NCBI GenBank assembly: GCA_945897885.1
Contig: CAMDGU010000023.1
Location: 1 to 43,972, forward strand
Direction of reading: 5' to 3'
DNA: 43,972 nt
DNA from: Chitinophaga pinensis
GTDB lineage: Bacteria > Bacteroidota > Bacteroidia > NS11-12g > UBA9320
The translations under genes and the position numbers were made by a program. Shown here piece by piece: positions 18,763-22,861 of the stretch. The notes below the pieces were generated by a model. The model was given only the letters and a program-made list of their open reading frames with translations. It had not been told where the DNA came from and ran no database searches. The first letter of the stretch is position 1. Every line of letters begins with the position of its first letter.

Positions 18763-19944
18763 ATGGAAACGAAACCTAATTTTAAAGTATCAGAAATTGA
18801 GGAACATCTGGATTCGGGTAACTATACCTTAGGATTCAGAAGGTTTTTGGATGTTTGTTTGGAAACGGATTTATCGGTAGAACAAAAACAAACTGTTCTT
18901 GGTTTGTGTGATATCTATAACCAAGTTATTGATAATACCGATGTATTTGAATCAAGTTTTTTGGAAAAAGTGAAGGAATTGTCTCTTCAGTTTTCTGAAA
19001 TGAATCTTGATGCTGCAAATGCTCAAAATAATGTGGTAAGTGGACAACAAATTTCAAAGTCATACAAAGCCGGGCATTTTAAATTGCAACCTATTAGCAT
19101 GAGCATTGATACCGGTGAATTGGTAGGTATAGTTGGTGAAAATGGAAATGGTAAAACAACCTTGCTGCGAATGATGGCAAGTGATTTAAGTATTGATGAG
19201 GGAGAAATTAATTACGAATTGGGTATTGGGAATGATGAGTCGTTGTATGACGAAAAGAGCAGCATAGCCTATATTCCTCAAAGAATACCAAGGTGGTATG
19301 GAAAGCTTAAAAATAATCTTCATTTTGCTGCTTCATCACGTGGTATTTATGGTTTTGAAAATGAGTATTTGGTGAATGTAATGCTTACCCGATTGGGTTT
19401 AAACAAATATAAGAATTTGTTTTGGACTCAAATTTCAAGTGGATACAGAACCCGATTTGAATTAGCACGAATTTTATTGCTTAAACCACAACTTTTAATA
19501 CTTGATGAACCATTAGCTAATCTGGATATCAATGCTCAACAAACGTTTTTGCAGGATATTCGAAATTTGGCAAAATCAAAAAGGCATCCTATGGCTATTT
19601 TATTTAGTTCACAGCAATTGCATGAGGTTGAAAAAGTAGCCGACCATATTGTTTTTTTAAGAAATGGGGAAAGTATATACAATTCAACCATTGATACGAA
19701 TGAAGCGTTGGAAACTCACACCGAAACGGAAATAGAAACTACCGCCACTCGCGACCAAATATTAGCAGCCTTAAACGGTATAGAGCACCTCACAGTGAAG
19801 CAACAAGGGGGAGTTTATATCATTCGCTGTCAGCAAACGGTTCATTCTTTAGAAATACTAAAACGCATCTTAGGAGCAGGGCTCACTGTTTCTTATTACC
19901 GTGATTTAACACATTCAACCAAAAAATTCTTTAACGAAAATTAA
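18763..19944 (+). CDS. ABC transporter ATP-binding protein with N-terminal helical extension and altered motifs
   Basis: This 393-residue ABC ATPase has an ATPase core at about 92-305. Walker A is GENGNGKT at 125-132, the Q-loop lies at YIPQR, and Walker B is LLILDEPLANLD with its catalytic Glu. Two motifs are unusual: the signature reads SSGYR where LSGGQ is normal, and the switch region reads SSQQLHEVE, with Gln at the usual His position. Before the core are about 90 residues of predicted helix with no known domain; after it is an alpha/beta domain (about 325-393). It is followed 17 bases later by a polytopic membrane protein, so the two probably form one transporter. The substrate is unknown. 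Confidence 0.85.
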   Translation: METKPNFKVSEIEEHLDSGNYTLGFRRFLDVCLETDLSVEQKQTVLGLCDIYNQVIDNTDVFESSFLEKVKELSLQFSEMNLDAANAQNNVVSGQQISKSYKAGHFKLQPISMSIDTGELVGIVGENGNGKTTLLRMMASDLSIDEGEINYELGIGNDESLYDEKSSIAYIPQRIPRWYGKLKNNLHFAASSRGIYGFENEYLVNVMLTRLGLNKYKNLFWTQISSGYRTRFELARILLLKPQLLILDEPLANLDINAQQTFLQDIRNLAKSKRHPMAILFSSQQLHEVEKVADHIVFLRNGESIYNSTIDTNEALETHTETEIETTATRDQILAALNGIEHLTVKQQGGVYIIRCQQTVHSLEILKRILGAGLTVSYYRDLTHSTKKFFNEN

Positions 19945-19961
19945 AACTTTCTTATTCAAAA

Positions 19962-21389
19962 ATGAACTTACAACGATTTGTCCCTGATTTTATAAAACGT
20001 TTAGACCATTATCTGCTTACCCATTACCCAATTATTTGGCAAAGCCGAATTCATAATGTTTTTTATGCCGTAGTGCTTACCAATCTTTTATTGGGTGGAT
20101 TGGCCATGTTATTACCTGTTAATATTGGTCATCGCTATGAATTGTGGGAATGGACATGGACGTTTTTTGTTGTAGCCGTTACCTACCTGGTAATTTGGAT
20201 GATTCACGTAGGAAGGTTTAATATTTTTAAACTCTATGGAAAAAGGCCTATTGGCGATGAGTATATCAATTTTGTTTTGCATATGCTGTCTGTTGTAATG
20301 ATTGCCAGCACCATGTTTTCGTTTCATTATGTTTATGACCAAAAAATAAGGAATATTGTTTCGAATGCCGAGCTGGCTCAGGACATAAACACCTTAAATT
20401 TAGGAGCTCCCTTTTTTCCTAATCAGGAATCTTACTACAGTAAGTATAAAGCTGATGGCTCGGCAGATGCGGATAATGGACTCTATCTTTACAATTACCA
20501 TAATTTTGATCGATTTGGAAACCAAAGGTTTTGGACTAATTTAGAAAATGATGGATTAGATAATTCATATTACAGAGGTTATGAAGCAACTGAGGAGCAG
20601 ATTATGGATACAACTATTGTTCAAGAAGTAACCGACCCATGCACACAAAGCAAATTTGGGCTTAATTGTTATGATGAAAATAAAAAGCTGTTTAACCAAA
20701 AAAAATCACCGCAAGAGCAACTGGAATTGATAACTAACTTTATTAAAACGGCAAAGAAGTATGGGGTATCAATTAACATATACCCCAATAAAGTTCTAAG
20801 TCGATTTAATAAAACTGAAAATTATAAGTTCAATCTGGATAATGGTGAGGTATATAATTTTTTTGACATTAATTATAAGATTGAAAATTCTGTTGGCTAT
20901 GTTATAAGTTCAAAAACTGACAGAGTGATTTTTTATGACCCTGATTTTTGGCATGTCATGTGGTATTTGTGTTTTAATTTAGCCTTGTTATTTATGATTT
21001 ACCGCAATGTAAGACGAAGGGATTTTATTCTCTCCGTAGTTAGTGGCATTGTGATAATGGTAGTTTCCGGAATTATTTTGGCACTTACCAGAATGAATAG
21101 TGAAAATGAAATTTTTGGATTTTATTTTATGATTTATTTGGGATTAGTTGCAGGAGCTTCAGCTATTTTATTTAAAAGAAGTCATTCTTGGCTAAATGCC
21201 GCTTGTCTAAATTTAGTAGCAGTTTCTACACCGTTTATGCCATTGTTTTATTATGAGTTTAATCATCACCATTACGATAGAGCCATGACTACCAATTGGG
21301 AAATAGCAGGATTTGTGATTTTCTTTCTGCTTCTACAGGTGTTTTTCAAAAAACTATATACTACACTTTGGGCATTGCCTGAAAAGTAA
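19962..21389 (+). CDS. Polytopic membrane protein, probable partner of the preceding ABC ATPase
   Basis: This 475-residue protein has about eight membrane helices: three near the N-terminus (about 27-45, 55-80 and 95-118), then a soluble segment of about 200 residues rich in Asn, Tyr and Asp (about 119-325), then five more to the C-terminus. The layout, with a large extracytoplasmic domain after helix 3 and a C-terminal helix block, resembles ABC export permeases in plan, but I do not recognise the family. The 17-base spacing to the ATPase gene implies co-expression. It could be the permease of an exporter or a membrane protein regulated by the ATPase. Confidence 0.6.
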   Translation: MNLQRFVPDFIKRLDHYLLTHYPIIWQSRIHNVFYAVVLTNLLLGGLAMLLPVNIGHRYELWEWTWTFFVVAVTYLVIWMIHVGRFNIFKLYGKRPIGDEYINFVLHMLSVVMIASTMFSFHYVYDQKIRNIVSNAELAQDINTLNLGAPFFPNQESYYSKYKADGSADADNGLYLYNYHNFDRFGNQRFWTNLENDGLDNSYYRGYEATEEQIMDTTIVQEVTDPCTQSKFGLNCYDENKKLFNQKKSPQEQLELITNFIKTAKKYGVSINIYPNKVLSRFNKTENYKFNLDNGEVYNFFDINYKIENSVGYVISSKTDRVIFYDPDFWHVMWYLCFNLALLFMIYRNVRRRDFILSVVSGIVIMVVSGIILALTRMNSENEIFGFYFMIYLGLVAGASAILFKRSHSWLNAACLNLVAVSTPFMPLFYYEFNHHHYDRAMTTNWEIAGFVIFFLLLQVFFKKLYTTLWALPEK

Positions 21390-21425
21390 TAATTCATTTC
21401 ATCATTTTACTTTAATTTGTATCAC

Positions 21426-22319
21426 ATGAAAATAGTAACAACTTCACTCATTCTACTTATAAGTTTTATTTCATACGGGCAATCAATCATCAATGAAAAT
21501 TTTGAAGATTGGATTGATAATACCGCGTTTGTATATCCTGATGGCTGGATTACACTGAATGATTTAAGTCCTGAATATGGAATACCGTTTACCGTTCTAA
21601 AATCAACGGATGCTAAAGAAGGGCAATCTGCTGCCCACATGCAAACCTACACCTTTAAGGATGGAAATAACAATACAGATACCTTGCCGAGTATTATGGT
21701 GTATGGCACCGATATTAATTCTGGGGTAACCTACACCTGGCCCAAGCGATTAAAAACTCTAAGTTTTTCTTATAAATACAAACCCAACGGAGTAGATACA
21801 GGAGCAATGTATTTAACTGTTGGCTATAGGGATAGAAAAACCAATCGCTATGTGAATCAGGGAGGAACTTATTATATTTTTACAAAACGAGAAGATACTT
21901 ATACCAAGGTAAACTTACCACTTTACTATAGTTCTAACCATAAATGCGACACCTTTGTGTTTGCCTTTATTAATAGTATAGAAAAGCCCAATGGAAATAG
22001 ATGTAAACCCGGAACCATTCTTATTATAGATGATATAGATACAGAATGGGAAGATTTTCCGGCCGTGGCAAATCTAATGGAACCCGATTTACAACTTGGT
22101 ATATATCCCAATCCGGCTGTTGATATTATTGCTATCAATGGTTTAGAACCTGTAAAGAATACAGCTCAGATTATTGATATTACAGGCAAAGTTGTTCTCG
22201 CAGAGACATTGGTTGGTGAAACCATAAATATTGAAACACTAAAGCCCGGATTTTATAATTTAAGAATTCAAGCAGCTAATGGAAGTTTTAGGGGGTCTAA
22301 TTATTTTATCGAAAAATAA
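21426..22319 (+). CDS. Secreted protein with T9SS type A sorting domain
   Basis: This 297-residue protein (ATG at 21426 chosen because it directly starts the signal peptide MKIVTTSLILLISFISYG; a TTG nine bases earlier would add three residues) has a beta-sandwich region of the kind seen in putative carbohydrate-binding exoproteins, starting NENFEDW and PDGWITLND and ending with TILIIDDIDTEW. The C-terminal sorting domain (about 220-297) has LGIYPNPAVDIIAINGLEP, ITGKVVL and LKPGFYNLRI, the signals for T9SS export and surface attachment. No enzyme active site is recognised. Its TAA stop overlaps the next ATG (TAATG), so translation is coupled to a cytoplasmic DUF1572-like protein. Confidence 0.8.
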   Translation: MKIVTTSLILLISFISYGQSIINENFEDWIDNTAFVYPDGWITLNDLSPEYGIPFTVLKSTDAKEGQSAAHMQTYTFKDGNNNTDTLPSIMVYGTDINSGVTYTWPKRLKTLSFSYKYKPNGVDTGAMYLTVGYRDRKTNRYVNQGGTYYIFTKREDTYTKVNLPLYYSSNHKCDTFVFAFINSIEKPNGNRCKPGTILIIDDIDTEWEDFPAVANLMEPDLQLGIYPNPAVDIIAINGLEPVKNTAQIIDITGKVVLAETLVGETINIETLKPGFYNLRIQAANGSFRGSNYFIEK

Positions 22320-22861
22320 TGGAAAACACCTATTTATTCAGTGCTTTACGATTGTTTAAATATTACAAATCATTGGGAGATGCCGCCATCCTTCGTTGTG
22401 ATGCTGATAAAATTCACTTTAAATTAAACGAAGAATCAAACAGTATGGCCTTACTGGTGAGGCATATTTCGGGTAATATGATGAGCCGATGGACTGATTT
22501 TATGACCACTGATGGTGAAAAACCTTGGAGAAATCGCGATTCTGAATTTGCTGACCCCGAGTGGGATAAAGAAACGTTAATTGCCCAATGGGAAAAAGGG
22601 TGGGTAACTTTGTTTGCCGCAATTGAACCATTAGAAGCTGAAGACCTTGAAAAAGTAGTTTATATTCGCAATGAAGGCCACACCGTAATGGAAGCTATCA
22701 ATAGACAAATTGCCCATTATGCCTATCATGTTGGGCAAGTTGTTTTTTTAGCTAAAGCTATTACAACAGAATGGGAAACCCTAAGTATTGCCCGAAATAA
22801 ATCAACGGATTATAATGCCGATAAATTTAGCAGGGATAAAGGAAAAAGGCATTTTATTTAA
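22319..22861 (+). CDS. DinB/DUF1572-like protein
   Basis: This 180-residue, mostly helical protein resembles the DUF1572 branch of the DinB-like four-helix-bundle superfamily. Supporting segments are LLVRHISGNMMSRW near 45-58 and AHYAYHVGQVVFLAK near 132-146, where the spaced His residues would form the metal site typical of the fold (another His, HTVMEA, lies near 120). DinB-like proteins are metal-binding; some are thiol-dependent transferases, but DUF1572 members have no assigned reaction. The start codon overlaps the stop of the preceding secreted protein. It ends six bases from the convergent LytTR regulator gene. Confidence 0.8.
   Translation: MENTYLFSALRLFKYYKSLGDAAILRCDADKIHFKLNEESNSMALLVRHISGNMMSRWTDFMTTDGEKPWRNRDSEFADPEWDKETLIAQWEKGWVTLFAAIEPLEAEDLEKVVYIRNEGHTVMEAINRQIAHYAYHVGQVVFLAKAITTEWETLSIARNKSTDYNADKFSRDKGKRHFI

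Follow-up and report, generated by a model that had tools for sequence, protein, structure and literature searches.

The two adjacent genes at 18763–21389 of the window, by which we mean the whole stretch of 43,972 nucleotides analysed, from a Bacteroidota genome, are a real, conserved and uncatalogued ABC pair. The first (18763..19944, + strand) encodes an ATPase of 393 aa, defined by its ORF, PF00005 and a 62-member alignment, with Gln at the position of the switch His; the second (19962..21389, + strand) encodes a membrane protein of 475 aa that, judging from its ORF and hydropathy, has approximately eight helices and N and C termini predicted to be cytosolic. By ORF coordinates, the ATPase stop and the membrane-protein start lie 17 bases apart. 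The best reading of the sequences is that the pair forms an ABC family not named in the Pfam and NCBIfam copies searched. The claim that the family is undescribed rests on those copies and on literature searches for a description or for an H-loop Gln, whose listings contained nothing on this family, a result that is not proof of absence. With moderate confidence, we interpret the pair as an uncatalogued ABC system in which a homodimer of Gln-switch ATPases would drive the partner of about eight helices, most likely moving or flipping a substrate.

The ATPase and its switch glutamine

The ATPase matches PF00005 (E=1.6e-25, 90.7 bits vs. a cut-off of 25), and its ORF translation contains the motifs as initially annotated: Walker A, the catalytic Glu, ISSGYR at the LSGGQ position and a switch segment reading SSQQLHEVE. 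By the alignment of 62 family ATPases (L119, L162 and L163 together with 59 sequences drawn from the window, L007 and the fetched loci), the elements fall, all on the + strand, at residues 125–133 for Walker A GENGNGKTT (19135..19161), 173 for the Q-loop Gln (19279..19281), 224–229 for the signature ISSGYR (19432..19449), 244–250 for Walker B LLILDEP (19492..19512) and 282–284 for the switch SSQ (19606..19614). Q173, S225, G227, R231, F232, D248, the catalytic E249, P250, L254, D255, S283 and E290 are each found in 62/62 sequences, and the Walker A K131 in 61/61, one row being truncated there. The Walker A, Q-loop, signature Ser-x-Gly, catalytic Glu and D-loop Asp of PF00005 are all present, while its H-loop His, usual though not universal, is absent and Gln284 takes the position in 62/62 sequences. 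The Gln first noticed in a single protein is thus real and beyond chance, and because the other catalytic motifs are kept with it throughout, we consider it a fixed trait of the family and not a product of decay.

A degenerate pseudo-ATPase was rejected on two grounds, the invariance of the catalytic Glu and of the remaining motifs and the low Ka/Ks of a pair under purifying selection (ATPase approximately 0.06, membrane protein 0.17, Ks near saturation). Two nearby histidines were rejected as substitute switches, H287 because the position is Y or F in 19/62 members and H285 because it is H in just 11/62. Of the PF00005 cassettes of the host genome that are readable at the switch, almost every one has His; Gln was read in the window copy alone, and the other exception is L150 (G000:C2:76396-76806), a short ABC cassette with Asn (SNNPLEY) located just upstream of an LptF/G-family protein gene (G000:C2:77004-78473).

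The closest likeness is to the GldA/NosF/ABCA-type (ABC-2) ATPases, which share the xSxGYR signature, the C-terminal domain and the EVE after the switch; GldA is the top NCBIfam match, its 109.8 bits being below the TIGR03522 cut-off of 402.6. SSGYR had been read correctly but is not the oddity it was taken for, since GldA of the same genome has the signature LSKGYRQR. What sets the family apart from these ATPases is the Gln for His, a clade of its own and a partner unlike GldF or ABC2_membrane_3. A tree places 16 family members, among them the cyanobacterial ATPase, on a branch of length 1.06 that separates them from 22 further host-genome cassettes (support 96/99); its bootstrap was still unsettled, and L155, a long row, falls outside the family branch.

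An extra C-terminal domain, likewise claimed as unusual, does exist: a beta-alpha-beta-beta-alpha-beta domain at residues 320–393 (19720..19941, + strand; model and alignment) with a conserved YYRDLTHSTKKFF near its end, modelled by AlphaFold2 over 320–381 in a ferredoxin-like element order with block pLDDT of about 67–87. It nevertheless looks ordinary for an ATPase of the NosF, PmtC, MetN or ABCA type, since PmtC, MetN, NosF and ABCA proteins, whose ATPases have similarly placed C-terminal domains, head the Foldseek list. The ATPase model is poor overall (mean pLDDT 51.5; input of the window, L007 and L163), and the list, with TM-scores of only about 0.24–0.32 by query length, is used only to hint at the nature of the C-terminal domain.

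The N-terminal helical extension, put at 90 residues in the initial annotation, measures about 93 (residues 1–93; 18763..19041, + strand) and is absent from some relatives. AlphaFold2 models helices at 7–86, with a pLDDT of about 61–80 in 10-residue blocks over residues 11–80, and among 47 of the 48 reference members (L124 was omitted for its unknown residues), R27 is near-invariant and D30 invariant. The extension is possibly, if weakly, EAD11-like, a likeness first suspected by eye and then searched. Of the 47 extensions scanned with Pfam, EAD11 (PF19964) matched 2 at E<=1 (best 0.0074), MA3 matched 3 and MC5 2; none passed the cut-off, and the window's own extension had no match to PF19964. 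In hhalign, the extension and an EAD11 alignment built from 24 of the matches listed reached 57% with a score of 26, vs. 15 for the reversed control and a maximum of 12 among 40 column shuffles. Homotypic interactions are the mode of action described for EADs of conflict systems, and the ABC terms searched for are absent from the available parts of the two EAD texts (PMC7159879, PMC8195603).

The membrane partner

The impression that the membrane protein belongs to no known family has stood up to searching. No convincing Pfam or NCBIfam match was found for the window protein and the family members scanned: at E<=0.1, no Pfam family collects more than 2/63 membrane members, NCBIfam gave nothing useful for ten of them, and PADLOC had no match to the membrane protein. 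The PADLOC matches of the ATPase (best mad3, E=1.6e-22) look like generic cassette/ATPase similarity, and a defence system was rejected. Similarity to a characterised permease family, a finding that would have spoken against novelty, was looked for with hhalign, using comparison alignments made with sequences from the host's relatives, and was not found in the three families compared: LptF/LptG (PF03739) gave 1.4% and 4.8% probability, ABC2_membrane_3/GldF 0.3% and 0.6%, and MacB/FtsX (PF02687) 0.7%, equal to the reversed control. The overall range of 0.3–4.8% is to be set against 0.1–1.8% for reversed controls and against positive controls of 98.7% (LptF/G with LptF/G), 99.7% (ABC-2 with GldF) and 98.5% (Bacteroidia with cyanobacterial members of the family).

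Given these figures, we find it unlikely that the partner is a member of some known permease class, such as an LptF/G-like one, that has diverged past sequence recognition. In LptF/G, the periplasmic domain is located between helices 3 and 4, and LptB2FG follows an ATPase-plus-permease logic; by hydropathy, the outer domain here lies in the same position, again in a system of ATPase and permease, and one of the 63 membrane members matches PF03739 at E=0.05. The agreement of the PF03739 architecture (three helices, a beta-jellyroll periplasmic domain and three more helices) with our protein is one of domain position by hydropathy, however, whereas the helix number differs, six vs. about eight, profile similarity is lacking and the outer domain here is dispensable.

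The topology itself is close to the eight helices and 200-residue outer domain originally described. In the window copy, seven hydropathy peaks exceed the strict threshold and a weaker stretch at about 411–430 was counted as the eighth, arranged as three helices, an outer stretch at about 121–328 and then about five helices; the downstream gene of 39 class-wide loci has 8 helices in 29 cases, 7 in another six and 6 in the remaining four, again by hydropathy. The AlphaFold2 model of the membrane protein (input of the window and L007) had a pLDDT of 36.9 and gave no usable structure. Positive residues mark the loops at 85–101 and 348–354 as probably cytosolic, and it is on the predicted cytosolic face that conservation is concentrated: in an alignment of 63 members, the N terminus averages 1.74 bits, the C terminus 1.75, the two cytosolic loops 1.32–1.37 and the outer domain 0.65, with peaks at W26, P23, P473, W79, H31, N87 and K90 and the lowest values in the outer domain. 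Near-duplicates and fragments had been removed from this alignment, namely both L038 copies, the second L039 copy, the first-listed full L040 copy, L043, L049, L052, L094, L105 and L124. Two conserved elements suggest contacts with the ATPase, an N-terminal DxxLLxxYPxxWxxxxH motif at residues 15–31 (20004..20054, + strand), a putative docking segment, and the cytosolic loop that joins helices 2 and 3, at residues 85–101 (20214..20264, + strand), in which RFNxxK is conserved, a putative coupling loop.

The outer domain (residues 121–328; 20322..20945, + strand), on the other hand, is variable and dispensable, with lengths above 200 residues at one extreme and of about 50 in L045 and L046 at the other. 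At L122 (G309:C1, 7474-15691), one family ATPase is followed by seven tandem membrane genes of 273, 287, 289, 285, 298, 301 and 449 aa, each of which begins with (Y/H/R)PxxW, while only the last has an outer domain. Two tandem membrane-gene copies are found in L037–L040 and L111. An apparent relic, L049 (G019:C44, 6836-7222), is a membrane-protein gene reduced to its C-terminal part, and no ATPase was found within the fetched 9.3 kb.

These observations bear on mechanotransmission, in which the ATPase cycle would be relayed to the outer domain for periplasmic work, as in MacB, LolCDE and FtsEX, and nothing would cross the helices. The type VII systems are alike in combining an ATPase with a membrane protein that has a periplasmic domain, and most members of our family do keep an outer domain of about 200 residues in which Y267, D141 and N146 are conserved, more than a pure transporter would need and a point against transport. 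Yet the MacB/LolCDE/FtsEX class has four helices, not about eight, and its periplasmic domain is placed differently; the partner here has no FtsX/MacB profile similarity, and its outer domain is the least conserved region, is missing from six of the seven L122 genes and has nearly disappeared in L045 and L046. Mechanotransmission therefore seems to us improbable. The early proposal of a divergent transporter or a mechanotransmission pair, perhaps undescribed, is supported in its general form, and we favour transport, without proof, since members can do without the outer domain but keep the helices and the cytosolic motifs.

Distribution and local history

The two families co-occur: a membrane relative is the next downstream gene in 57/62 loci, namely 60 fetched loci (20 from the order and 40 of the 47 class loci, with G199, G290 and G361 left out), L007 and the window. 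The five exceptions are L046 and L049, with no full ATPase (L046 is at a contig end, with a partial ATPase upstream), L119, where the ORF filter missed an ATPase that the class-locus analysis did see, L122 and L125. Among the class loci, the switch Gln is found in 40/40 and a membrane relative recognised by profile in 38/40; the next gene of L122 has the motif without a profile match, and L125 ends at a contig edge. The spacing between the genes is mostly below 20 bases, and 20 of the 57 pairs overlap or abut. Distances among the ATPases and among the membrane proteins are correlated (r=0.81, vs. at most 0.09 in 300 permutations), something that shared descent alone also gives.

In the class and phylum searches, the best four candidates per genome were scored, and additional copies may have escaped; with the ATPase profile at E<=1e-50, 47/395 Bacteroidia genomes matched, once each, and in the phylum draw 8/395 genomes matched. 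Single-sequence searches with the membrane protein found relatives in 6/38 genomes of the family, and a profile found them in 22/108 genomes of the order. Among plasmids, the ATPase query returned three records, of Tolypothrix and Microchaete; the window membrane protein as the query found nothing. One of these records, the mobilizable plasmid NZ_CP064890.1 of Tolypothrix sp. PCC 7601 (L162), has a cyanobacterial copy of the pair, annotated just as an ABC transporter ATP-binding protein and a hypothetical protein. Its ATPase has the switch SSQNLYEIE, and the gene overlaps that of the 538-aa hypothetical protein, which contains the family DHYFLLNYPRLW motif and FN and matches the family profile at E=3.4e-16. 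With SSQ in this plasmid ATPase too, the switch Gln has been kept across two phyla. L163, from a contig catalogued as viral (IMGVR_UViG_3300014728_000011), is a family ATPase right after which the contig ends; this is probably bacterial flank.

Within the genus, the pair is missing from 5/7 genomes, and such sporadic presence argues that it is not essential. The pair is flanked upstream by atpG and downstream by a gene encoding a type-IX-sorted protein (sorting tail PF18962; 21417..22319, + strand), which is followed by one for a DUF1572 DinB-like protein (22319..22861, + strand). In the window and L007, these four genes lie between atpG and a response-regulator gene, an interval that in the siblings G006 and G007 contains a 119-aa ORF alone. 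Because the block at 18763–22861 is absent from both siblings, it appears to have been gained or lost as a unit, with the latter two genes as co-inserted companions. The window ATPase groups with extension-bearing relatives at the level of the order and not with extension-less members of its own family (support 99/98), which suggests transfer or differential loss. Comparison of the fetched loci across lineages found neither the two companion genes beside the pair nor any conserved gene neighbourhood, so the neighbours offer no clue to a substrate. A divergent HtrA/Do-like serine protease gene upstream of the ATPase recurs only in L114, L120, L122 and L125.

Proposed mechanism and its meaning

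In the transport mechanism that we propose, two ATPases would dock on two membrane subunits, which would be identical here but would differ in loci with tandem copies; the contacts would be the N-terminal YPxLW segment, the RFNxxK loop joining helices 2 and 3 and the C-terminal tail. The presence of a single ATPase gene suggests a homodimer with Gln at both sites. ATP would close this dimer and move the helices, and hydrolysis would reset it; Gln284 may hold the gamma-phosphate in place of the histidine, with hydrolysis probably slower. The complex would move or flip a lipid, peptide or other amphiphile outward, both direction and substrate being guesses, and the outer domain may be a lineage-specific accessory that meets the substrate or a partner. 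Transport itself, argued by comparison, is the weakest step. A bolder version is tentative when its parts are taken jointly: an eight-helix permease unrelated to the known ABC types, with Gln at both sites and hydrolysis continuing, in which one ATPase serves up to seven different membrane subunits and, in most members, a helical adaptor, possibly EAD11-like, recruits a further partner.

Whether Gln is common in known active members, raised initially as a possible objection, has a partial answer. An engineered Gln in the H-loop of the ABCC1 consensus site leaves transport wild-type-like, according to the available part of PMC7756269. The natural His-to-Gln change of human TAP1, as described in the available part of PMC6222333, is found in a degenerate site without ATPase activity, in which Glu has also changed to Asp and which is paired with a canonical site; the same source holds QM/MM work arguing that the switch histidine takes a chemical part. 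On these two grounds, the family could be poor in hydrolysis, and the pair might be a slow ATP-gated clamp, channel or sensor, with Gln at both sites and with ATP binding, not turnover, controlling the gate or signal. The fixation of Gln in every member (62/62) fits such a device, and the variable outer domain could sense a ligand. A non-hydrolysing site would, however, be free to lose its catalytic Glu, D-loop and signature, as TAP1 illustrates, whereas in this family all three are invariant, and the TAP1 arrangement differs from that of the window, where a single ATPase has the Gln and keeps the Glu. The tolerance of ABCC1 to the same residue also speaks against the clamp, which we regard as doubtful.

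The proposed transporter touches on a wider question, as the argument between a chemical role of the switch histidine, as a proton relay, and a positioning role is open in the available part of PMC6222333. A family with a fixed Gln and all other catalytic residues is a natural experiment on that role, and its membrane partner adds an ABC-associated protein family unnamed in the Pfam and NCBIfam copies searched. If the family hydrolyses ATP, the chemistry does not require the histidine; otherwise, a widespread ABC machine is run on ATP binding.
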